Below, one piece after another: positions 3,641-48,654 of a stretch of 64,000 bases of DNA. Source of the stretch: Phycisphaerales bacterium (GTDB lineage: Bacteria; Planctomycetota; Phycisphaerae; Phycisphaerales; UBA1924); assembly GCA_007693765.1 (NCBI GenBank), contig RECZ01000152.1, positions 1-64,000 on the forward strand. Reading direction: 5' to 3'. Made by a program: the position numbers and the translations under genes. The notes below the pieces were generated by a model. It did not search any database and had not been told where the DNA came from. It saw only the letters and a list, made by a program, of their open reading frames with translations. How positions within the stretch are numbered: the stretch's first letter is position 1; every line of letters begins with the position of its first letter.

Positions 3641-3951
3641 TCCTTCACGCCCTCCACGCGGCCCTCGTCGGTGTACTTCTGCAGCGCATCGGCGAGGTCG
3701 ACGCCGGTGATGTTGGCGAGCGTGGCGAGCCACGCGAGCACGTCGGCGAACTCTTCGGCGAGATTGGCGCGCTGCTCGGGCGTGGGCGACTTGCCGGGGG
3801 CGTTGTCTTGGATCGCGGTGGCGAGTTCACCGATCTCCTCGATGAACCACATGAACGTGCCGGGGGCGCCGCGGGCGGCGTCGGTGTCGTAGTAGCGGCG
3901 ACGGATCAGGGCCTGGAACTCGGCGACGGTGATGGGGTTTGCAGCGCTCAC
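3637..3951 (-). CDS. MazG-like nucleotide pyrophosphohydrolase
   Basis: A 104-residue all-helical protein with the MazG/dUTPase-superfamily metal-binding signature: FIEEIGELATA (EExxE) followed about 27 residues later by EEFADVLAW (ExxD). Family members hydrolyse (d)NTPs to monophosphates, typically as house-cleaning enzymes; the substrate here is unknown. It is the short single-domain type rather than the two-domain E. coli MazG. The GTG start at 3951 overlaps the stop of the upstream Cys-rich gene (GTGA), and its own stop overlaps the trpA TTG start, so three consecutive genes look translationally coupled. A start further upstream is open but would read antisense to the Cys-rich gene's frame and lacks homology. 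Confidence 0.85.
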   Translation of the reverse strand: MSAANPITVAEFQALIRRRYYDTDAARGAPGTFMWFIEEIGELATAIQDNAPGKSPTPEQRANLAEEFADVLAWLATLANITGVDLADALQKYTDEGRVEGVKD

Positions 3952-4193
3952 GGGAGATGACGATAGCAGGGGGCGGCCGGGTGAGTGTCCGACGGCGCCG
4001 GCGCCGGCGCCGCGGCGTCGAAGACGGTCTGGCCGGACGCGAGGGCGGCCCGGACGTAGGGCTCGCACAGCGTGCAGCCGCGGCAGCACTCGGTGGACTC
4101 GCACAACGCCTCGAAGCCGAGGCCGCCCGCGCGGGCGCGCCGGAGAAGGCTGTCGAAGGTGGTGTCGATGCAGACGCAGCGGTCGATCGTCAT
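3948..4193 (-). CDS. Small Cys-rich protein, possible BFD-like [2Fe-2S] protein
   Basis: An 81-residue protein with seven cysteines concentrated in its first 43 residues: CVC near the start (residues 6-8), then C31, CC at 36-37, GC at 40 and C43. CxC followed by a C-x2-C cluster resembles bacterioferritin-associated ferredoxin (BFD-like) [2Fe-2S] domains, but with extra cysteines and wider spacing. The C-terminal 30 residues are Ala/Pro-rich and probably disordered. It starts at ATG 4193, 13 bases after the prepilin gene ends, and overlaps the mazG-like gene by four bases. A redox or metal-sensing role is inferred from the cysteines only. Confidence 0.65.
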   Translation of the reverse strand: MTIDRCVCIDTTFDSLLRRARAGGLGFEALCESTECCRGCTLCEPYVRAALASGQTVFDAAAPAPAPSDTHPAAPCYRHLP

Positions 4194-4206: not shown

Positions 4207-5007
4207 TCATTCGTAGTCGTAGAGAGAGTTGTCGTCGCGATCGCCGAACCAGCCGAGGCCGACCGAGCCGGAATCGGTGAGCCAGAAACCGCTCGACCAC
4301 GTGAAGGTCATGACCTCGCTCGAAAGGTGGCCGTCGAGCCACACGACGTTGGCCCGTTCGGCGTGCCGGAAATGCGTCGTGGGGTCTGTTCGGGCGCCGG
4401 GTATGTCCGGCCAGAACCGCGGCTCGAGGAACGCGTACTCGATCAGCCCGTCGTCGGCGGCGAACGCCCCGTCGGCGAAGGCGAGCGTGCGCGAAGGGTT
4501 GCGGAACCGATCCTGTGATGCGCCCGATGCCGACGACGCGACGATCCACGCCCCGCTCGAGGTCCGGTGGCGCTGCACGCCGACGAAGGCGTTGTTGTAG
4601 GCGTACCCGCCCGCCCCGTTGTCGAAGCCCTCGCTCGACTCGCGCAACGCATCCTGCGTGCGCGCAAAGGACGGGCACTCGCGAAGCGCATCGCTCGTCG
4701 GCGCGCTCTCGAGATACCGGGTGAGCGTGCCGCCCTCGGGGGCGAAGGGCGAAGAGAGCGTGGCCCGGGCGCCGTGCCATCGCACGAGGTCCTGCAGCGG
4801 GTTGGGCGCGCCCGCGGCGAATCGTCCGTCTCGATCCTTCGCGTGCATGAGGTTCGCGAGTTGGAGTTGGCGCAGGTTCGATGCGCACGCCGCGCTCCGC
4901 GCTGCGCCGATCGCGCCGCTCAGCGTGGGCAGCAACACGCCCAGCAGCAGCGCCACGACGCTCACCACAACGAGCGTCTCCACCAGTGTGAACGCGGGCC
5001 GTTTCAA
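4207..5007 (-). CDS. Type II secretion/pilin-like protein with H-X9-DG domain
   Basis: A 266-residue prepilin-like protein. The N-terminus LKRPAFTLVETLVVVSVVALLLG is a class III signal: a short basic leader, cleavage before Phe, Glu at mature position 5 and a hydrophobic helix. Near the C-terminus HAERANVVWLDGH fits the H-X9-DG motif of planctomycete prepilin-type proteins. Such proteins are processed by prepilin peptidase and sit in the inner membrane or a pseudopilus. I chose TTG at 5007, which overlaps the TGA of the upstream surface protein (ATTGA) and places the leader exactly at the prepilin signal; the ATG at 5094 would add a long basic stretch. Its place in a B12-riboswitch array is unusual. 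Confidence 0.85.
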   Translation of the reverse strand: MKRPAFTLVETLVVVSVVALLLGVLLPTLSGAIGAARSAACASNLRQLQLANLMHAKDRDGRFAAGAPNPLQDLVRWHGARATLSSPFAPEGGTLTRYLESAPTSDALRECPSFARTQDALRESSEGFDNGAGGYAYNNAFVGVQRHRTSSGAWIVASSASGASQDRFRNPSRTLAFADGAFAADDGLIEYAFLEPRFWPDIPGARTDPTTHFRHAERANVVWLDGHLSSEVMTFTWSSGFWLTDSGSVGLGWFGDRDDNSLYDYE

Positions 5008-6239
5008 TGGATGTCCGTCCCGAAGTTGGCGAGCACCATGGCGAGGTCGGCGAAGTCCACCACGCCGTCGCCGTTGAGGTCGCCCGCGAGGCACTCACCG
5101 GACTGCCCGAACTGCCCGAGCAGCAGCGCCAGGTCCTCGAAATCCACCACGCCGTCGCCGTTGGCGTCACCCGCGAGCGGCGAACGCGCGCGCACCCGGG
5201 CCACGCCCGCGACCTCCATCGAGATCTCACCCAGCACGCCGCCGGGCCCGGCCAGCGCATCGACGCCGGTGCGGAGGCGGATGAAGTCGAACCCGTCGAG
5301 GTTCGCCGGCGCGCCGGTCTCCGGGTCCACGGCCCAGGCGATGTCGAACGCGTCGCCGCCGCCGCTGCCCGGCGACACACCGACGGTGAACGGGTCGTCG
5401 GGGGTGGTGTAGAAGAACGCGGGGTCGACGCCCGGCAAATCCTCGGGTTGATCGAGCCGGTTGTCGTGCGCGCTGTTGCCGGTGGCGCCAGACATGTCGC
5501 CCAGCAGCAGCGTCGGCGAGAGGCCCCCGTACCCCCAGACGCCCTCCACTGTCGCGCTGAGCCCATTAGGGTTGGTGAGGATGGACTGCGTAAAGAGCGA
5601 GGGCAACTCGTACCCCTGCGTGGTGTACGCGTCGGGGAAGCCGGGGAAGTGGGGGGGCGCCGGGTACCAGTTGATGTTGGTCGGGGGTGTGGGCGTGTTG
5701 GGATCGTTGTCCCACGCCTGCGTGCGCAACACGGACGACGGCGCTGCGGGCAGGTGCGATCCGGGGATCACGTACCACGGGTCGTCGGGCAGGCCGTTGC
5801 CGTTGACGTCGCGGCTGATCTCGATCACCGCGGCCTCGGCCCAGCGCCTGTTTGGGTTGCCGCTGACCCAGAACGCGTTGGTGAACACGATCGCGTCAAG
5901 CCCCATCGGGTTGCACGGGTCGTCCCAGACGGTGTCCGCGAACCCCAGCACGATCGTCCCACCGAAGCCGCCCAGCGTCACGACCGCGGAGTTGTCCGCG
6001 GAGAGCGTGCCGCCGCCGACGGGCGGGCCGAGGGCCGCGGCCGGGTCGTTGAAGTACGTCCCGTCTGCGCCGGGGAGATTCACGAACTGCCCCGGCGCCG
6101 GCGTGTACTCGTGCACGACGGAGGCGAACCAGTGGGTGTGATCGAGGCCGGGCCCGGCGACGACGGTCGCGGACAACGCCCAGACGAGCGCTGAGACGCC
6201 CGCGAACGTGCGCACTGTGCGGCGGTGTGAGGGCTGCAT
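5004..6239 (-). CDS. Secreted surface protein of cobalamin-locus type with two dockerin-like repeats
   Basis: A 411-residue exported protein. A signal peptide occupies about residues 1-29 (basic start, hydrophobic core, AVVAG). The body contains EYTPAPGQFVNLPG, VTLGGFGGTIVLGF, NGNGLPDDPWYVIPGS, AFDIAWAVDPETG and GEISMEVAG. From memory this pattern matches the cell surface proteins found beside BtuB/BtuG in Bacteroidota vitamin B12 loci. Two Ca-binding dockerin/EF-hand-like units, GDANGDGVVDFEDL and GDLNGDGVVDFADL, end the protein; unlike its relatives here it ends without a Cys. The ATG at 6239 follows AAGGGAG. It is 29 bases downstream of the propeller-like gene and shares its riboswitch. 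The function, probably binding at the cell surface, is inferred. Confidence 0.8.
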   Translation of the reverse strand: MQPSHRRTVRTFAGVSALVWALSATVVAGPGLDHTHWFASVVHEYTPAPGQFVNLPGADGTYFNDPAAALGPPVGGGTLSADNSAVVTLGGFGGTIVLGFADTVWDDPCNPMGLDAIVFTNAFWVSGNPNRRWAEAAVIEISRDVNGNGLPDDPWYVIPGSHLPAAPSSVLRTQAWDNDPNTPTPPTNINWYPAPPHFPGFPDAYTTQGYELPSLFTQSILTNPNGLSATVEGVWGYGGLSPTLLLGDMSGATGNSAHDNRLDQPEDLPGVDPAFFYTTPDDPFTVGVSPGSGGGDAFDIAWAVDPETGAPANLDGFDFIRLRTGVDALAGPGGVLGEISMEVAGVARVRARSPLAGDANGDGVVDFEDLALLLGQFGQSGECLAGDLNGDGVVDFADLAMVLANFGTDIH

Positions 6240-6268
6240 GGGGTCGTCTCCCTTCTTTGTGCGCCGGG

Positions 6269-7468
6269 TCAGCACGCGTCCCCGAACGATTCGAGCACGA
6301 TGGTCAGATCGTCGAAGTCCACGACGCCGTCGCCGTTGACATCGCCCTGCAGGCCCGCGCCCTCGGATCCGAACTGGCTCAGCACGATCACGAGATCGGA
6401 GAAGCCGACGGCGTTGTCGCCGTCGATGTCGGCGGGGAGCGGTCGCGGCCCGACGCTGGCGCTCCACGTGGCCACGCCCGTGTCGTAACTCACGTACGTC
6501 ACGACGATCTCGCCCGTGGCGTGATTGGGGAACGCGCCGTAGAACGCGAACGGGTCGGCGACGGGCGTGAGCCGTAGCAGGTGGGCGGGGTTTTTGATGT
6601 CCAGTGGGCCGGCGCCCATGAGGGCCGCGTCGATCGCGTCGGCGCGGATCACGCCGAGGTAGCCGACCTCGCCCGAGTCGAAGAAGTCGCCCCCGCCGAC
6701 GAACAGGTTGCCTTCGGCGTCGAACCGCAGCGACACCGCGCTGAGCACGGTCCCGATGAGCACGCCCTCGTGCACGAAATCCGCCGGGGTGGCGGCGTAC
6801 AGCGCGGGGGCGAAGGCCTTGATGTCGCCGGTCCTGGTTCCGTCTGGATCGAACGCGAACCCGTTGCCAGTGTAGAGGTTGCCGTCGGCGTCCACGCTCA
6901 CGCCCGCGGAGGCACCGTCGATATTGGCGATGAGCGTGCGCACGCTCGGCGCCAGCGGGTCGCTGGTCACATCCAACTCCACCACGACGCCGTCCGCGCT
7001 CAGGGCGAGCCGCGTGTCGTCCAGCCACACACCGTCGTAGTGGGGCACGCCGAAGAGCAACGCCGTGGCCGACACATCCGCGGCCGGGTCGCCCTGCGCG
7101 GCGAGTTCGCTCGTCTCGAACACCACCACCGCGGTCCCCGTGCCGACCGCCAGGGCGAGACCGTCGGGGCTGACGGCGATGAAGGCGGGGTCGCTGGTGA
7201 GCCCGAACGTCGCGCCGGCGTTGAAGACGCCCGAACTCGTCGCGGTCTCGACATACACGGTGTCGCCGGTGACGGCGAGCAGCCGCCCGTCGTGCAGGGC
7301 GGCGCCCGCGATGGTGAACGACCCTGCGCCGATCGGCGCAGGCGTGAAGGTGCGCCACGACGCGCCGTACCCATCGAAGGCGGGGCACTGGGCGGGGGCG
7401 ACGCTCGCACAAAGCGTGAGCGCGCAGAGCGGTGCTGCGCAACGGCGCACGAATCGGGCATACGGCAT
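6269..7468 (-). CDS. Exported beta-propeller-like protein with dockerin-like repeats
   Basis: A 399-residue protein with a signal peptide (about residues 1-26, ending ASVAPAQ). The body has recurring blade-like units: DGRLLAVTGDTVYVET, SPDGLALAVGTGTAVVVFE, DDTRLALSADGVVVELD, DADGNLYTGNGF and DAEGNLFVGGGDFF. This suggests a six- or seven-bladed propeller. Two dockerin-like units follow, the first (DIDGDNAVGFSDL) slightly degenerate and the second GDVNGDGVVDFDDL, ending in FGDAC. It is the first gene after the cobalamin riboswitch. The Bacteroides B12 receptor BtuG is also a surface propeller, so a cobalamin-binding role is attractive but unproven. ATG 7468 was chosen because it begins the signal peptide; an ATG at 7633 lies inside the riboswitch region. 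Confidence 0.75.
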   Translation of the reverse strand: MPYARFVRRCAAPLCALTLCASVAPAQCPAFDGYGASWRTFTPAPIGAGSFTIAGAALHDGRLLAVTGDTVYVETATSSGVFNAGATFGLTSDPAFIAVSPDGLALAVGTGTAVVVFETSELAAQGDPAADVSATALLFGVPHYDGVWLDDTRLALSADGVVVELDVTSDPLAPSVRTLIANIDGASAGVSVDADGNLYTGNGFAFDPDGTRTGDIKAFAPALYAATPADFVHEGVLIGTVLSAVSLRFDAEGNLFVGGGDFFDSGEVGYLGVIRADAIDAALMGAGPLDIKNPAHLLRLTPVADPFAFYGAFPNHATGEIVVTYVSYDTGVATWSASVGPRPLPADIDGDNAVGFSDLVIVLSQFGSEGAGLQGDVNGDGVVDFDDLTIVLESFGDAC

Positions 7469-7596
7469 GGAAGAAGACCCTTCGCTGTAACGCCCTGAAA
7501 ACGCGCAGGACGGCTCCCGAGACACTCGTTGTCCCGCCGCGTGGGGGTCTGCGCCTGCACAGGAGATTCGCCGGGGAGCGCGCGAAGTCTGCGGAG

Positions 7597-7618
7597 GCGC
7601 CCCGAAACGCGGGGGCGC
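7597..7618 (-). other. Hairpin in riboswitch-to-gene leader (possible expression platform)
   Basis: A perfect 7-bp stem (GCGCCCC/GGGGCGC) with an 8-base loop lies between the B12 box and the start codon at 7468. It lacks a downstream U tract, so it is not a standard intrinsic terminator. It may be part of the regulatory switch or a Rho-dependent arrangement. Confidence 0.35.
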
Positions 7619-7629
7619 ACAAACACGTG

Positions 7630-7812
7630 TCAACGGCAGGTCTTCCGGCTCCGGGCGCCGGGCTTCGCGAAGAAGCCCGGGGCGGGTCCGCCTTCCCGCG
7701 GCGTGAGGGCCGCAGTGGCGTTCTATGGACCCGCGATCGCTCCGTTACGGCGGCGCGTCCGCGGCGGTTTTTCACCGCACTTCCCATTTTCATCCCCCGG
7801 CGCGCACGAGCG
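7630..7812 (-). promoter_or_regulatory. Cobalamin (adenosylcobalamin) riboswitch
   Basis: Read on the minus strand, the conserved parts of the cobalamin aptamer occur in order. GGGAAGTGCGGTGAAAAACCGC is at 7764-7785, then GCCGCCGTAACGG, then CCACTG at 7713-7718, GGGAAGGCGG at 7688-7697, and the B12 box AGCCGGAAGACCTGCC at 7635-7650. Ligand binding normally represses downstream B12 synthesis or uptake genes. It lies about 165 bases before the start codon of the propeller-like protein at 7468 and downstream of the AAA+ gene that ends at 7873. The element boundaries are approximate because the P1 stem was not modelled. Confidence 0.92.
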
Positions 7813-11693: not shown

Positions 11694-12414
11694 ACGCGAT
11701 GGCCACGATCGCGGCCGCCACGCCGAGGGCGCCGATCACAAGCGCCGCGACGACCCAGCGCCGCGTGAGGTTGAGCATGTCGGCGAGTTCCTTGTCGCGG
11801 AGGGCGTTGCGCTCGTTCATCGCGGCGATGGCGCCGCTGGAGCGCTCGCTCGAGTGGGCCATATCCTGAAGCGAGCCGCGGAACTCCGTCAGCGTGCCCA
11901 CGAGGTGCGTCTCGGTCTCGCGGGCGTCGTCGAGGCGGTCGCGGATGTGCGTGAGGGCGGACTGCACCTTCTCGTCGCGCCGGGCGGACTGCTCCGAGCT
12001 CTCGCGCAGCGTCTCGACGGCGCGCTTCGTCTGATCGCGCAGCTCCGGCAGCGCGTCGAGGGCGTCGGGGATGCGCTCGACGATGGTCATCAGCTTCGCC
12101 GTGCGCTCCGACTCGCGGTCGAGGTGCGTGTTGACTTTCCGCACGAGCTCGAGCACCTCGGTGTAGTTCTTCTGGAGCTCGACGATGAGCTCCTGCTTGT
12201 TGCGGGGGGTCGCGAGGGCGCCGCGGTCGTCGGCGTCGTCGGAACCGGGGGCTCCGGGGGCGCCGAGGGCCTCGTCACGGGCGTTGGGGCGGGCGTCGTC
12301 CGCGTCCATGCGCACGGGGCGGAAGGGCACGGCGCCGCGCTGACCGTTGGCGGTGTGCGCCTTGGCGTTCGGCTTCCGGGTGAACATCGATGAGAGTTTG
12401 GCCAACACGCTCAT
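11674..12414 (-). CDS. Coiled-coil protein with C-terminal membrane anchor
   Basis: A 246-residue hypothetical protein. Residues 1-65 are polar and low-complexity. Residues about 70-205 are heptad-rich helix (NKQELIVELQKNYTEVLELV through RNALRDKELADMLNL), predicted coiled coil. A single strongly hydrophobic helix at about 212-240 (WVVAALVIGALGVAAAIVAIAF) ends the protein, so it is probably a tail-anchored cytoplasmic rod at the inner membrane. There are no catalytic motifs. The ATG at 12414 has an excellent AAGGAAGGAG ribosome-binding site. Its 3' end overlaps the end of the BshC-like gene on the opposite strand. Function unknown; a scaffold role would be speculation. Confidence 0.75.
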   Translation of the reverse strand: MSVLAKLSSMFTRKPNAKAHTANGQRGAVPFRPVRMDADDARPNARDEALGAPGAPGSDDADDRGALATPRNKQELIVELQKNYTEVLELVRKVNTHLDRESERTAKLMTIVERIPDALDALPELRDQTKRAVETLRESSEQSARRDEKVQSALTHIRDRLDDARETETHLVGTLTEFRGSLQDMAHSSERSSGAIAAMNERNALRDKELADMLNLTRRWVVAALVIGALGVAAAIVAIAFILTRG

Positions 12415-12518
12415 GGCTCCTTCCTTTCGCGAGGCCGCGGGAATCGACGGCTCCGCCGTCGCTGCCTGACAGTACGCCAAGCGGGACGCATCCGCAACGG
12501 GGAACCCGACGCTTCGCG

Positions 12519-12524
12519 TAGGAT
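12519..12524 (+). promoter_or_regulatory. Putative -10 element (leaderless start at 12531)
   Basis: TAGGAT lies six bases before the GTG start of the BtuF-like gene, which has no Shine-Dalgarno sequence; transcription would begin at or next to the start codon. No clear -35 is visible. Confidence 0.45.
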
Positions 12525-12530
12525 TTACGC

Positions 12531-13421
12531 GTGACGCGATTCGCGACAACCAGAGCAACCCTCGGCGCCGTGCTGGCGCTCGCCTGCGCGCTCGTGGCCG
12601 CGTGCGGCCGCGGCGAGCCGGCGCCCGCGACGCACACCGGCGCCGTTCCCGACCAGCCGCGCATCGCCGTGCTCAGCCCGGCCATCGCCATCATGCTGGT
12701 GGACCTCGGCGCGGAAGGCGCCATCGTCGGACGGCACGCCTTCGACCTCGTCCTGCGCGAGGGTGTGCAGGTGGTGGGGGACCAGGCCGGGATCGATTAC
12801 GAGGCCCTCCTCCGCGTCGAACCTACCCACGTCGTGATCGAACGCGGCGCCGGAGAGCGGCCGCCCCGCCTCAACGACCTCGCCGCCCGCCGCGACTGGA
12901 CGGTGCTCGACTACCCCATGCTCACCTTGCAGGACATCCGCCACGCCCTCGCCGCCCTCCCCGCGGATCTGGCCCTGAGCGGGGGCGCCGCCGCGCGACG
13001 CGACGCCCTGCTCGCCGCCATGGATGCGTCGTGGTCGCCGCGATCGGGCTTCGGCGCCGCCACGGGGCGGGCGCTGCTGCTCTACTCCACGGAGCCCCTC
13101 GGCGCCGCGGGGCCGAGGTCCTTCCACGCCGAGTTGCTCGAAGCGCTCGGGGGCGAGAACGCCATCGCCGCCGGCGCCCCGTACATCGCCCTCGACACCG
13201 AGGATGTGCGCAGGCTCGACCCCGACAGTGTCTTTCTCATCATCCCCAGCGCTGATCCCGCACGACTGGACGACCTGCTGCGCCCCCTGCGCCGGGCCGG
13301 CCTGCGCGCCGTCGCCGAGGGGCGCGTGGCGCTCATCCATCACCCGCACGCGCAGACGCCCAGCACCGCGATGATCGACGTCGCGGAGGAGATCGCCGCG
13401 GCCGCCCGCCAGTGGGAGTGA
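12531..13421 (+). CDS. BtuF-like periplasmic binding lipoprotein
   Basis: A 296-residue ABC-transporter substrate-binding protein of the helical-backbone (cluster A-II) type that binds cobalamin, haem or siderophores. The N-terminus is a lipoprotein signal: hydrophobic core then LVAAC lipobox with Cys near residue 24. The body has PRIAVLSPAIAIMLVDLG (family-typical opening), GIDYEALLRVEPTHVVIE, VLDYPMLTLQDI and, in the C lobe, FHAELLEALGGENAIA. There is no permease or ATPase gene next to it, so the transporter is encoded elsewhere or the protein is an orphan. With the cobalamin riboswitch 5 kb away, B12 is a reasonable ligand, but iron-chelate binding is equally possible. Confidence 0.75.
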   Translation: MTRFATTRATLGAVLALACALVAACGRGEPAPATHTGAVPDQPRIAVLSPAIAIMLVDLGAEGAIVGRHAFDLVLREGVQVVGDQAGIDYEALLRVEPTHVVIERGAGERPPRLNDLAARRDWTVLDYPMLTLQDIRHALAALPADLALSGGAAARRDALLAAMDASWSPRSGFGAATGRALLLYSTEPLGAAGPRSFHAELLEALGGENAIAAGAPYIALDTEDVRRLDPDSVFLIIPSADPARLDDLLRPLRRAGLRAVAEGRVALIHHPHAQTPSTAMIDVAEEIAAAARQWE

Positions 13422-43278: not shown

Positions 43279-43920
43279 TCAGCAGCCCTGACCGAAGAGC
43301 GAGAGCACAAGGCTGAGGTCGCCGAAGTCGACCACGCCGTTGCCGGTGACATCGCCGGGCAGGTTGGCGCCGGATTGCCCGAAGTTCGCGAGCACGAGGC
43401 TGAGGTCGCCGAAGTCGACCACGCCGTCGCCATTCGCGTCGCCGATGAGCGCCTTGACGAAGTGGGTGCTGTTGTCGAGGTTGATCCAGCCGACGTTCTC
43501 CCCCCACGCGTAGCCGCGGAAGCGGCGGGCGCTGAAGTCGAAACGGGCGCCCTGCGAGCCCACGCTCGCGGTAGTCCCGAAGTTCACCCAGCCGATGTTT
43601 TCGCCCCACGCGAAGCCGCTGAGTTCACCCGTGGAGGGGTCGACGTTCACGCCGAAGTTCGTGCCGTTGGTGTTGGCGTAGGGGCCGGAGCCGGAACCGA
43701 CGTTGATCCAGCCGACGTTCTCACCCCAGACCCAGCCGCGAAGGTGGTTGTTGAAGACGCGGACGCCTTGGGCGCCGGCGTTGGCGTCCCGGAAGTTAAG
43801 CCAGCCGATGTTCTCCGCCCATGCGAATTTGCCGTCGGGGCAGACGTTCGTGCTCTGTGCCGCGGCGTGGCCACTAGCCAGTGCGAGCACGGCTGTGGCG
43901 GCGATGAGGCTTGTGCGCAT
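43279..43920 (-). CDS. Secreted repeat protein with dockerin-like C-terminus
   Basis: A 213-residue exported protein (signal peptide to about residue 22, SGHAAAQ). Four imperfect ~20-residue units follow: FAWAENIGWLNFRD, WVWGENVGWINVGS, FAWGENIGWVNFGT and YAWGENVGWINLDN. Each has the W-x-EN-GW pattern and a variable linker. Two dockerin-like units (GDANGDGVVDFGDL and DVTGNGVVDFGDL) end it, with a terminal FGQGC. The ATG at 43920 has a good GAGGAGA. It is divergently transcribed from the T5SS-repeat protein. The role is likely at the cell surface; no enzymatic motif. Confidence 0.75.
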   Translation of the reverse strand: MRTSLIAATAVLALASGHAAAQSTNVCPDGKFAWAENIGWLNFRDANAGAQGVRVFNNHLRGWVWGENVGWINVGSGSGPYANTNGTNFGVNVDPSTGELSGFAWGENIGWVNFGTTASVGSQGARFDFSARRFRGYAWGENVGWINLDNSTHFVKALIGDANGDGVVDFGDLSLVLANFGQSGANLPGDVTGNGVVDFGDLSLVLSLFGQGC

Positions 43921-44280: not shown

Positions 44281-46344
44281 ATGAACAGATCGATCAAAAC
44301 GTCACGCATCGTCCTCGCTGCGGGCTTCCTGTTGAGCGTCGGCGCGCTCGACGCCGCCGCGGTGGACCGCTTCTGGACCAACACCAACGGGGGCGAGTTC
44401 GGCAACGCCGGCAACTGGGCGGGTGCGGCCCCCGACGTAAGTGACACCGCGATCTTCGGCGTCCCCGGCACGTTCACGGTGACCTTCCCGGTGACGGCGC
44501 AGACCGCGGGCCTCCTGATGCGCGACGGGGATGTGACGTTCCAGTTCGGCGTCAACCCGGGGTACGTCGTCACGGGACTGGCCGTGATCGGAGAGGAAGT
44601 CGGGGCGACCTCGGTGCTGCGCGTGACGACCCGCAGGTTCTCGCTCTCGACGCTGCGTCTCGGCTTCGTCGCGAACACATCCGGCGAGCTCGTGATCGAC
44701 GGCGCCGACGCCGAGCTCGACGTCTCCGGCTCGACGACCGTGGGCTTGTCGGGCGATGGGGTCATCCGCGTCGCGGGCGGCGGTAAGGCGACGTTCTTCA
44801 GCGATGTGACGGTCGGTTTCAATGGCGGCGCGAACGGCGAAGTCATCGTCACCGGCGGTGGTTCGAACGCGGTGTTTGAGGCCGGCCTGAGCATCGGGTT
44901 CATTGGCGACGGCGCGGTGCGCGTGATGGGCGGCGGTTTGGCGACCTCAAACTCGGCGTCGTTCGGGGCCGGGTTCACCGGCTTCGGCGAGCTCGAAGTC
45001 CGCGGCTCCGGTTCGGCGTTCAACAACACGGTCTCCACGTTCATCGGCGCCGACGGCGCCGGCGCCTTGACCATCGCCGCGGGCGGTGCGGTCAACAGTT
45101 TCGGGGCCTCGCTCGGCGCGTTCGCCGGGAGCGAGGGCGAGGGGGATGTGGCGGGCGCCGGCAGCCGCTGGTCGATCGGACAGGTGCTGCAGATCGGGCG
45201 TCAGGGCACGGGCTCGCTCGTGGTCCGGAACGGCGGGCTCGTGGAGAACACGCAGAACTTGTTCGTGGGCAGCCTGACCGGCAGCGAGGGTTTCCTCGAG
45301 GTGCGCGGCTCCAGCTCCGCGATGCAGGTCGGCCAGCAGATCATCGTCGGGCGTGAGGGCGTCGGCTCGATGCTGATCGCCAACGGCGCCAATGTGACGA
45401 GCAGCGGCGTCGGTTCGGCGTCCTTCTCCGGTGGGATCGTGGGCGGCTTCGCCTCCGGGGTGGGCAGCGCGACCGTCCGCGGCGCGGGCTCCACGTGGAC
45501 GATCTCGCCGGGTTCGATGAACGTCGGGTTCCTCGGCGACGGCGCGATGTTCATCGAGCAGGGCGGGAGCGTCGTGTCCGGCGATGCCTACATCGGGCGC
45601 CAGTCGGGCTCGATGGGGCACGTCGAGATCACCGACTCAGGCTCCGCGTGGACGGCCGGCGGCACGCTCCGCATCGCGCTCGATCCGAACAACGCGATCG
45701 GCGGTTCGGGCACGCTCCGACTGCTCAACGGCGGCGTGATGAACCCAACCGCCGCGATCATCGGCCAGCAGGGCATGCTGACGGGCGAAGGCGGCGTCCT
45801 GCAATCTGATGTCGAAAACCGCGGCGTGGTCGAGCCGGGCGCGCCCACCGGGGTGCTCAACATCGCCGGGGCGTACACGCAGTCCCAGAGCGGCGCGTTG
45901 CGCATCGTCTTCGACGACACCGCGGGCGGGGGCGGGCCGATCCACGGGTCTCTCAGCGTCTCCGGCGCCGCCAGCCTGAACGGGACGCTCGAGGTGGTGC
46001 TCGCGCCGGACGCGAACCCCCCCGCCGGGGCCTACACCGTGCTGACCGCGACGGGCGTGTCCGGATCGTTCGCGTCGGTGATCCCCGTCACGCTGCCCGA
46101 CGGGCGCACGTTCGACGTGGACATCTTCTCCGACAGCGTCGTGGTGACGCTCGGAGATCCGAGCCCCACCAACTGCCCGGGGGACACGAACGGCGACAAC
46201 GTCGTGGATTTCGCCGACCTGAGCACGGTGCTGGGCGAGTTCGGCCTGACGGGCGCGGGTCTGGACGGGGACGTCAACGGCGACGAGGTCGTGGACTTCG
46301 CTGATCTGAGCATCGTGCTGTCCAACTTCGGCAACGAATGCTGA
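44281..46344 (+). CDS. T5SS/PEP-CTERM-associated repeat protein with dockerin-like C-terminus
   Basis: A 687-residue secreted protein. After a signal peptide (residues 1-27) come tandem beta-rich repeats of about 45 residues with the recurring theme VTVGxxGxGxLxVxGGGS, for example DGAVRVMGGGLATSNS, FGELEVRGSGSAFNN, GALTIAAGGAVNSF and GSLVVRNGGLVENTQ. This is the pattern of T5SS/PEP-CTERM-associated repeats predicted to form a beta-helix. It ends with dockerin-like GDTNGDNVVDFADL and GDVNGDEVVDFADL and a final FGNEC. No autotransporter barrel or PEP-CTERM anchor is present, so dockerin-type anchoring is inferred. GGAGAGAG precedes the ATG. Confidence 0.82.
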   Translation: MNRSIKTSRIVLAAGFLLSVGALDAAAVDRFWTNTNGGEFGNAGNWAGAAPDVSDTAIFGVPGTFTVTFPVTAQTAGLLMRDGDVTFQFGVNPGYVVTGLAVIGEEVGATSVLRVTTRRFSLSTLRLGFVANTSGELVIDGADAELDVSGSTTVGLSGDGVIRVAGGGKATFFSDVTVGFNGGANGEVIVTGGGSNAVFEAGLSIGFIGDGAVRVMGGGLATSNSASFGAGFTGFGELEVRGSGSAFNNTVSTFIGADGAGALTIAAGGAVNSFGASLGAFAGSEGEGDVAGAGSRWSIGQVLQIGRQGTGSLVVRNGGLVENTQNLFVGSLTGSEGFLEVRGSSSAMQVGQQIIVGREGVGSMLIANGANVTSSGVGSASFSGGIVGGFASGVGSATVRGAGSTWTISPGSMNVGFLGDGAMFIEQGGSVVSGDAYIGRQSGSMGHVEITDSGSAWTAGGTLRIALDPNNAIGGSGTLRLLNGGVMNPTAAIIGQQGMLTGEGGVLQSDVENRGVVEPGAPTGVLNIAGAYTQSQSGALRIVFDDTAGGGGPIHGSLSVSGAASLNGTLEVVLAPDANPPAGAYTVLTATGVSGSFASVIPVTLPDGRTFDVDIFSDSVVVTLGDPSPTNCPGDTNGDNVVDFADLSTVLGEFGLTGAGLDGDVNGDEVVDFADLSIVLSNFGNEC

Positions 46345-46389: not shown

Positions 46390-48654
46390 TCAGTTCCCCT
46401 GGCAGACAACGCCGAAGTTCGAGAGCACGAGCGAGAGGTCGGCGAACCCGATCGAGCCGCTCCCCGTGAGGTCGCCGGGCAGGTCGGGTCCGACCTGCCC
46501 GAAGCCCGTCAGCACGGCGGAGAGGTCGACGAAGTCGACGACGTTGTCGCCGTTGACGTCGCCCTCGCACACCCCCGCCGACGGGGAATCCGAGACGGCG
46601 CCGGTGACGACAACCGCGAAGCCCTGCTTCTCGGCGTTGATCGCGGCGCCGCGGACTTTCACCGTCCATTGCCCGACCTGCGGGTTATTCACGTGCACCT
46701 GCTCGGTCGAGTTGATGGCGTCGGGTTGCCCCCCGGTGGCGGAGACGCCGCCAGAGAAGACGTTGCCGCGGTAAAGCGTTCCGCCGGGTGAGATGACCTC
46801 GAGGTTGATGTCGTTGACCGGCGCGAACGCGGCGCCGATGGTCGCGGGCACATCGGTGAAGGACATCGTGACCCGGAGTTGCTCTGCGTTGCTCTGGACG
46901 TCGAAGGTGAACGAGTACGTCTCACCGGTGCTCAGTGCCTGTGCGCTGTCGTTGCGGACGTCGCGCACGATGAGCGTACGCGGATCGCCGGGGAAGTACA
47001 GCGACATATTGGCGTTGACACGCCCCCAGCCCTCGCGGTCGCTGGGATAGCCGGGCACGCCGGTCATGTTCTGCGAGCTGTTGATGAGCAGGGCGCGGAG
47101 CAGGGCGCCGGTGGGGATGAGAGGGCTGTTCGCGGCCGCGACGCCGGTCGGGTAGTACCCGTCGGTGAAATATTGGCGTGCGAGCAGGGCGGCGCCGGCG
47201 ACCGCGGGGGAGGCCATCGAGGTGCCGGAGTCGCTGTATGTGGAGCAGGAAGTCTGCGACTGCGCCGACACCGTGTTGCATCCGGGGGCATAGACCTCGG
47301 GCTTGCGGCGCCCGTCTTCGGTCGGGCCGATGCCGCCGAGGCAGTGCTGGTGAATGTTGGGCGCACGCTGCGTGGCGCCGACGGCGAGCACGCTTTTGGC
47401 GTTCTCTGGGGTGTAGAGGAAGTTCTGGTTGCTGATGGCGAAGAGGACGACCGAGTCTTCGTTCTCGCGGCTGAAGGCGTCGATGGTGCGGGTCCAGCCG
47501 TTGTAATCGGTGCGGAAGTCGGCGCCCCACGAGTTGGTGTGCACGCGTGCGCCTTGGTCGTGATGCGTCTGCAGGCGCATCATGAGCGAAGCGCCCGAGT
47601 TGACGTCCGTGAAGCCCGGAACGGTGTTGAAGACGATCTTGGCGCCGTAGGCGACGCCGCGGTTGTTGTTGAACGCCCCCGAGTCGCCCGCGACGATGCC
47701 CGCGACGTGCGTGCCGTGCGTGGAGATGAAGCCGTTGCTGGCGTTGAACGCGAGCACCTTGCGGTGCGCAGGGCCGGGGGGCACGGAGTCGGAGAAGGCG
47801 CAATGATTGATGTCCATGCGGCCGTCGATGATGCCGACGACCTGTCCGAACCCGGTGAGCCCGTTGTTGTAGAGGGGGGTGTTGTCGAGACCGCCGCTCT
47901 GCACGACCTCGCGCACGGTGTTGTTCCGGCGCATCGTGACCTCAGGGGCCTCTTCGACATACTGCACGTCGGCGATGTGGGTGATTGCCTCGACGGCGTC
48001 GAGGGACGCGGTTAGCGTGAGCACCTTCTGGCCGCCGACGGCGTCGATCGAGCGCACGGCGACCCCGGGGAGGGCGCCGATGGCGTCGATGGCGCGGTCG
48101 GTGTCGGCGTCGGGGAAGAGGTGCACCCAGATCAGCGCGGAATTGAGCGCCTGCAGGATCACCCGCTCGGGCGAGGTCACGTGGCGAGCGCCGATGTCCG
48201 GGTCGAGCTTCCACGAGCTGTCGAAGGCGTCGCCCCAGCGGACGAAATCCACGCGTCGCATGGCCTCGGGGTCGGCGTCGGGGCCGAAGGTCACGATGTA
48301 GGCGTCGACGGGAAGGTACGCCCCGATCCGCACGCCGGCGTTCTCGAGCGCGGCCCGACGCTGCGAGGTGAGGGGGCCGTCGAGCTGGATGACGAACCGG
48401 TCTCCGGCGGCAATGGGCGCACGCTCGGCGAGGTCGCTCAGGCGGGCGATCACATCGCGGTCGGTGCGGATTCGTCCCGCCCGGAGGTGCAGCGCTTCGA
48501 GCTCCGCGACGCCGCGAGGTGAACGCACATCCTCGATCGCACCGGGGCCGGCCGCGCCCGGCTGCGCGATGGCGGCGGTGTGGCCGAAGATGAGCACAAA
48601 GAACAGCCCAGCGCCTACGGTCGTGCACGCGCGAGAAACGGATCGGGTTGACAA
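46390..48654 (-). CDS. Secreted subtilisin-like serine protease (S8)
   Basis: A 754-residue exported protease. The signal peptide is at residues 1-30. A prodomain-like region is followed by the S8 catalytic triad: Asp in VVGIIDGRMDINH, His in STHGTHVAGI and Ser in DSGTSMASPAVAG. A P-domain/PKD-like beta sandwich covers about 560-690 (SFTFDVQSNAEQLRV, GQWTVKVRGAA). Dockerin-like units GDVNGDNVVDFVDL and a degenerate DLTGSGSIGFADL end it. The start is TTG at 48654, with AGGAG seven bases upstream. The enzyme probably acts outside the cell on proteins; the substrate is unknown. Confidence 0.9.
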   Translation of the reverse strand: MSTRSVSRACTTVGAGLFFVLIFGHTAAIAQPGAAGPGAIEDVRSPRGVAELEALHLRAGRIRTDRDVIARLSDLAERAPIAAGDRFVIQLDGPLTSQRRAALENAGVRIGAYLPVDAYIVTFGPDADPEAMRRVDFVRWGDAFDSSWKLDPDIGARHVTSPERVILQALNSALIWVHLFPDADTDRAIDAIGALPGVAVRSIDAVGGQKVLTLTASLDAVEAITHIADVQYVEEAPEVTMRRNNTVREVVQSGGLDNTPLYNNGLTGFGQVVGIIDGRMDINHCAFSDSVPPGPAHRKVLAFNASNGFISTHGTHVAGIVAGDSGAFNNNRGVAYGAKIVFNTVPGFTDVNSGASLMMRLQTHHDQGARVHTNSWGADFRTDYNGWTRTIDAFSRENEDSVVLFAISNQNFLYTPENAKSVLAVGATQRAPNIHQHCLGGIGPTEDGRRKPEVYAPGCNTVSAQSQTSCSTYSDSGTSMASPAVAGAALLARQYFTDGYYPTGVAAANSPLIPTGALLRALLINSSQNMTGVPGYPSDREGWGRVNANMSLYFPGDPRTLIVRDVRNDSAQALSTGETYSFTFDVQSNAEQLRVTMSFTDVPATIGAAFAPVNDINLEVISPGGTLYRGNVFSGGVSATGGQPDAINSTEQVHVNNPQVGQWTVKVRGAAINAEKQGFAVVVTGAVSDSPSAGVCEGDVNGDNVVDFVDLSAVLTGFGQVGPDLPGDLTGSGSIGFADLSLVLSNFGVVCQGN

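Follow-up and report, generated by a model that had tools for sequence, protein, structure and literature searches.

A probable B12-capture operon in a phycisphaeral planctomycete: a cobalamin riboswitch, a BtuH-family protein and a constant prepilin partner

Well-studied systems by which Gram-negative bacteria take up vitamin B12 (cobalamin) pass through a TonB-dependent receptor. In Bacteroides thetaiotaomicron, BtuH2 contacts B12 through Gln333, Asn399, His476, Tyr510, Trp511 and Trp577 (PMC8941943), while BtuG1 is a propeller fused to a BtuH domain (PMC10404256). DUF4465 proteins, one from the phycisphaeran Mucisphaera among them, also bind B12 in vitro (PMC13398666). Here we analyse a 64,000-nucleotide stretch of Phycisphaerales DNA (the window; positions 1 to 64,000 of contig RECZ01000152.1, assembly GCA_007693765.1) from a 2.9 Mb, 96%-complete genome, in which a cobalamin riboswitch on the minus strand precedes genes for an exported beta-propeller protein, a BtuH-family protein and a type IV-type prepilin. 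We read this, with a probability of roughly 0.75, as a cobalamin-repressed operon for B12 capture to whose function the pilin contributes. In the collection of papers searched, we found none linking BtuH with planctomycetes, or a cobalamin riboswitch with Planctomycetes, and nothing relevant on a prepilin or pseudopilin with cobalamin.

The riboswitch aptamer (RF00174; 7618..7843, minus strand) scores 80.0 bits in cmscan against a gathering threshold of 31.5 (E=4.4e-18), covers the complete model from 1 to 189, and is the sole cobalamin riboswitch found in a search of the whole genome. From its 3' end to the ATG of the propeller gene at 7468 there are 150 bases. A first-pass annotation, made from the letters of the window, had proposed a cobalamin riboswitch followed by three contiguous genes within 4207-7812. 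The full-length Rfam match bears out the riboswitch, and gene calls confirm three co-directional genes 3' of it on the minus strand; the extent holds for the genes, whereas its upper end truncates the aptamer at 7812 instead of 7843. As far as they could be checked, the observations on which that annotation stood or fell (a covariance-model match, a propeller fold and similarity to B12-locus proteins) were all made.

It is the prepilin, rather than BtuH, that is the constant partner of the riboswitch. Our main sample consisted of the stretches 3' of 124 cobalamin riboswitches fetched across the class Phycisphaerae; it was picked by score rank and with the relatives of the window added, and is broad rather than random, its genomes being related. 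When a prepilin profile was run over all frames of both strands, we found a prepilin on the same strand, at most 3.7 kb 3' of the riboswitch, in 105 of the 124 stretches (median distance 2.4 kb), and on the opposite strand in none. Five of the 19 riboswitches without a prepilin have a contig end within 3.3 kb, and 14 of 20 additional riboswitches, several being the second in their genome, are also followed by one. In all ten whole genomes tested, the riboswitch-linked prepilin was the top match to the family, at 268-326 bits with the next match at 151 or less (a margin of at least 115); three of these genomes (G071, G096 and G137) were outside the prepilin model. Family matches number from 26 to at least 150 per genome, G137 having at least 150. 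In a tree, 34 core riboswitch-linked prepilins, including that of the window, fall on one supported branch.

The prepilin of the window (family F1; 266 aa; 4207..5007, minus strand) scores 16.7 bits with TIGR02532 (cut-off 16.3) and has the motif FTLVE, with Glu at mature position 5. The H-X9-DG model TIGR04294 gives 13.8 bits for a cut-off of 19, but the motif can be read plainly, and H215...D225-G226 is nearly invariant. The first-pass annotation's call of a prepilin holds. The stop codon of btuH and the TTG start of the prepilin gene share the bases TTGA (5004..5007, minus strand), a candidate for translational coupling judging from the sequence, and in approximately 38 of 95 cases in relatives, too, the prepilin gene overlaps the preceding gene by at least one base. 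Competence pili and the pseudopili of type II secretion systems (T2SS) resemble this arrangement in having a type IV-type prepilin and a secretin in the genome. They differ from it in that here one dedicated prepilin stands beside a small-molecule binding protein, and no link to DNA or to enzyme secretion was found.

The BtuH-family protein (411 aa; 5004..6239, minus strand) has a signal peptide without a lipobox and belongs to the BtuH family by both sequence and fold. In a single-sequence search it matched chain B of Protein Data Bank (PDB) entry 8blw (8blw_B, BtuG1 with its BtuH domain; E=8e-19) and 7biz (BtuH2; E=1e-17), while its other PDB matches were on the dockerin-like tail or not significant. 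A profile of 22 planctomycete homologues matched 7biz at 1.3e-23 across 291 positions of the BtuH2 domain. The AlphaFold2 model is of modest confidence (pLDDT 67), and its three best Foldseek matches are to 8blw (E=1.4e-13) and 7biz (E=2.4e-12). A search of a viral fold library gave no match at E<=0.001. To number the ligand contacts we added 100 to the chain positions of the printed alignments, an offset that is fixed because it lands on exactly the six published residue types of BtuH2. Three of the six are kept, and their codons lie on the minus strand: the equivalent of Gln333 is Gln51, within PAPGQ (6087..6089; near-invariant in our family alignment, A1), that of Asn399 is Asn121 (5877..5879; invariant), and that of Tyr510 is Tyr237, within GY (5529..5531; invariant), the first two placed by the 7biz alignment and the last by the profile alignment. 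The stretches EYTPAPGQFVN, LGGFGG and NGNGLPDDPWY, which the first-pass annotation had likened to surface proteins of Bacteroidota B12 loci, are genuine BtuH-family motifs, and EYTPAPGQFVN holds one of the ligand contacts. The protein probably binds cobamides. It shares with BtuH2 (7biz; PMC8941943) homology over the C-terminal B12-binding domain of ~270 aa, the Gln333, Asn399 and Tyr510 equivalents and a riboswitch-controlled locus. Unlike BtuH2, it has a dockerin-like tail and three changed contacts, it lacks a lipobox and PKD domains, and its locus has a prepilin partner and no BtuB or TonB. The lipobox characterises the Bacteroides members of the family and is no part of the binding domain itself.

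Between the riboswitch and btuH lies the gene of the propeller protein (399 aa; 6269..7468, minus strand), which also has a signal peptide and no lipobox. In its AlphaFold2 model (overall pLDDT 80) the propeller occupies residues ~35-340, and Foldseek matches it to propellers of many families, with E down to 1.9e-8. Orthologues stand between riboswitch and btuH in more than 20 genomes of the class; a synteny check that the first-pass annotation had proposed thus supports the order riboswitch-propeller-btuH, with the prepilin linked class-wide. As in BtuG1 (8blw; PMC10404256), a propeller is paired with a BtuH domain, and in a relative (L043) the two form one polypeptide. This is the only clean-looking fusion; the apparent fusions in L036, L055 and L047 have tail or signal sequence in mid-protein and could stem from a lost stop or an error in gene calling. 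In contrast to BtuG1, the two are usually separate proteins, the propeller is not detectably homologous to BtuG, and there is no BtuB partner to cap.

Both proteins end in dockerin-like calcium-loop tails that score narrowly under curated cut-offs. The tail of the BtuH-family protein (residues 355-406; 5022..5177, minus strand) reaches 22.1 with PF00404 (cut-off 22.9) and 26.5 with NF041540 (cut-off 29), and its fold matches the dockerin 2y3n (E=8e-4, TM 0.79 on the target); that of the propeller protein (residues 345-399; 6272..6436, minus strand) reaches 23.1 bits with NF041540 (cut-off 29) and matches PDB 2y3n at E=2e-5. Dozens of further proteins in the genome carry such tails, about 50 in all, and in families of the class other than the window's the same surface proteins carry PEP-CTERM-like tails instead. 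We take the tail for a lineage habit of surface sorting and not for a B12-specific feature. The two proteins are probably located at the surface, with dockerin or pilin display perhaps taking the place of a lipid anchor. Elsewhere in the window, dockerin-like tails are also found at 43282-43455, 46129-46341 and 46402-46605.

What stands between riboswitch and prepilin varies: a propeller with BtuH, a distant BtuH-like protein, PQQ-type propellers, DUF4465 or unassigned exported proteins. DUF4465 fills the slot in L041, L069 and L076, where we counted only loci confirmed by Pfam; a home-made DUF4465 profile was dropped, as it was contaminated by tail motifs. Like the BtuH-family protein, DUF4465 (BtuJ) is an exported B12-binding family, here found in the same slot; the BtuH fold is unrelated to it, however, and the paper describing it mentions no prepilin association (PMC13398666). 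Within the window's own family, L138, L144, L136 and L132 carry a distant BtuH-like protein, a PQQ-type propeller and a divergent prepilin, so that modules appear to have been swapped within one family. In L092 (1016-1579) and L115 (6271-6834), a protein that on inspection by eye resembles a PduO-type corrinoid adenosyltransferase stands between the riboswitch and the surface-protein/prepilin operon.

Riboswitches that lack a prepilin precede NrdD and MetE in L101, NrdD in L121, CobT and CobS in L119, and a TonB receptor in L141 and, by position, in L120 and L139. As sister riboswitches control classical cobalamin genes, we regard the prepilin operon as part of the B12 regulon. The aptamer is the same as in known RF00174 regulons (btuB, cob genes and B12-independent isozymes), and sisters within the class control BtuB-type receptors, CobT/CobS and NrdD-MetE; the difference is that the main target in this class is a surface-protein and prepilin operon. 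In L108 and L110 the riboswitch precedes an operon with gene sizes equal to those of NrdD-MetE in L101, and the B12-independent isozymes NrdD and MetE thus appear to be under B12 control in Phycisphaerae (L101, L108, L110 and L121). L141, from G137, has two tandem riboswitches ~2.1 kb apart, one before a prepilin and one before a TonB receptor, which places both B12 routes side by side in this genome. At L058 and L060 (G037) and L118 (G080), the gene that comes next on the strand of the riboswitch is, by our gene calls, not a recognised B12 gene; L058 and L118 are without a prepilin, and the other riboswitch of each genome (L059 and L248, respectively) has the module. The downstream families F2, F4 and F19 were considered as B12 transporters and rejected, as by eye they read as a sensor kinase, a prolyl-oligopeptidase-like peptidase and a MutS2-like protein.

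As for the outer membrane, a search for the TonB plug domain PF07715, which was positive in the E. coli, Caulobacter and Bacteroides controls, found it in none of 15 genomes of the window's family, the window's genome included, and in none of eight Hydrogenedentota-type or Isosphaera genomes taken from BtuH loci; across the class it is present in 102 of 248 genomes. The riboswitch-prepilin pair is present in 103 sampled genomes, and 64 of these lack the plug. When second riboswitches are added, all TonB-less genomes with enough sequence have the pair, and five TonB-bearing genomes lack it (Fisher p ~0.01, uncorrected for relatedness). Secretins, matches to FecCD-type permeases and B12-binding domains were found in 14 of 14 genomes tested, the B12-binding domain of the window's genome sitting in a 1203-aa frame of the size of MetH. 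With B12 domains and a capture operon but no TonB plug, the cell appears to use and capture B12 without a recognisable receptor.

We propose the following course of events. At low cellular cobalamin the riboswitch would permit expression of the operon, the direction of regulation presumably being repression by cobalamin. The BtuH-family protein and the propeller would then be exported and displayed at the surface, by dockerin-like tails here and by PEP-CTERM-like tails in other families, where the former would capture cobamides. The dedicated prepilin may act through the cell's machinery for type IV pili or type II secretion, which bears a secretin, and its mechanical role, in the version that we prefer, would be to stand in for BtuB and move the captured vitamin across the outer membrane, after which a FecCD-type ABC importer could carry it through the inner membrane. 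We prefer a role in uptake because no TonB-dependent receptor is detectable in the outer membrane of this lineage. Planctomycetes have pili-like fibres that bind macromolecules (dextran), and the bound macromolecules are perhaps then internalised (PMC5394234); this makes pilin-driven uptake a reasonable idea, if not a proven one. That the pilin works in uptake at all is a stronger claim than its having some functional part, and we advance it tentatively, at less than even odds. Similarly conjectural is the wider proposal of a TonB-independent outer-membrane route, in which a dedicated, cobalamin-repressed pilin or pseudopilin together with the secretin would bring B12-loaded BtuH-, propeller- or DUF4465-type proteins, or the vitamin alone, into the periplasm, and which would replace BtuB in Phycisphaerae, Hydrogenedentota and relatives.

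Several observations weigh against our reading or limit it. Half of the BtuH2 contacts are changed in the window's protein (His476 to Thr, Trp511 to Gly and Trp577 to Val). The annotation had likened the propeller to BtuG, which holds for the fold and fails for sequence kinship: a profile search of the PDB returned no BtuG chain up to E=1, with best matches at E ~0.03 or worse, and the parallel is thus one of fold and context only. The leader 3' of the aptamer folds like shuffled sequence (z=-0.03), and no terminator or structure sequestering the ribosome site was found between the aptamer and the ATG at 7468. TonB plug proteins are present in 39 of the 103 module-bearing genomes, and the module is therefore not tied to the absence of TonB. 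The tree does not join the divergent prepilins, those of the PQQ-propeller loci and some others, with certainty to the core set in a single clade: it requires three label changes, though all may still share one origin. The FecCD genes are assigned to B12 transport as candidates only, and the genomes are mostly metagenome-assembled and related to one another. Lastly, a role in secretion would account for the pilin about equally well as one in uptake.

Such a secretion role is quite conceivable, if still short of probable: the prepilin would be the dedicated pseudopilin of a type II secretion-like system that exports the BtuH-family protein and the propeller through the secretin, B12 would enter by a porin or an unrecognised receptor, and the pilin would have no part in uptake. 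Pseudopilins are normal parts of T2SS, the secretins in all 14 genomes tested fit, and the two proteins, with their signal peptides and no lipobox, need to cross the outer membrane. Yet a T2SS does not usually have a separate pseudopilin encoded for each substrate but uses its pseudopilins for many, and the prepilin here keeps its place while its partners switch between unrelated folds. The operon might instead make B12-binding fibres or particles outside the cell, which would serve to compete, to store or to attach to B12-rich surfaces and not to import directly; the dextran-binding fibres of planctomycetes (PMC5394234) and tails that could build assemblies would suit this. We consider it unlikely, as an operon under a cobalamin riboswitch, the kind of control that classical uptake and salvage genes have in relatives, would be expected to supply the cell.

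The two remaining alternatives question the partners themselves. Were the BtuH-like protein and the propeller to bind another ligand, whose use depends on B12, one could understand that only three of six contacts are kept and that the propeller has no sequence similarity to BtuG. The matches in fold and sequence are, however, specifically to B12-binding structures, conserved contacts are among the residues kept, and DUF4465 proteins take the same slot, which leaves this option very unlikely. Given how many family matches a genome has (from 26 to at least 150), and with planctomycete genomes holding tens to hundreds of prepilins, one could also imagine a prepilin landing behind the riboswitch as a chance passenger. 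This is barely credible when the same family member recurs on the same strand at 105 of 124 riboswitches and never on the opposite one, overlaps the neighbouring gene at stop and start codons, and is the top family match in every genome tested. On our preferred reading of a B12-capture operon, a whole family without a detectable TonB-type receptor retains an operon for surface capture that is under B12 control and has its own pilin, one of the many unexplained planctomycete prepilins gains a testable job, and BtuH-type capture proteins are extended beyond the gut. Should the pilin indeed take part in uptake, this would be a new means for a bacterium to get a vitamin past its outer membrane.

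To look beyond the class, we searched one genome per species with the BtuH alignment and obtained 80 BtuH loci. A prepilin stands on the same strand in 71 of them; of the nine others, six have a contig edge near btuH, and L177, L200 and L224 lack a prepilin. Isosphaera and many Hydrogenedentota are represented among these loci, as are single contigs with the titles Armatimonadota and Nitrospiraceae, and the riboswitch was present in 11 of 13 outlying loci searched. Some titles disagree with, or may not fit, the Phycisphaerae- or Hydrogenedentota-like content of the contigs: L209 (titled Alphaproteobacteria), L185 (Vicinamibacteraceae), L223 (Nitrospiraceae) and L221 (Armatimonadota). L209 and L029/L054 are one and the same contig, which belongs to a genome of the window's class.

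Contig 128 of genome G000, which has no TonB receptor, carries a FecCD permease gene followed by an ABC ATPase-like gene (11924-12865; L156 5907-6932), with no adjacent binding protein; the pair is a candidate B12 importer. In the window, a small gene for a BFD-like [2Fe-2S] protein (3948..4193, minus strand) starts 13 bases 3' of the prepilin gene and may be the last gene of the operon. This order, seen in the gene calls, is conserved: in the window's family, several genomes have a BFD-like gene immediately behind the prepilin gene. A homologue in L034 (8435-8677; 37% identity) scores 27.0 bits with PF04324, over the Pfam cut-off, and possibly the protein has a role with the captured corrinoid or with iron. 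A BFD-like gene also follows the different prepilin module in L136.

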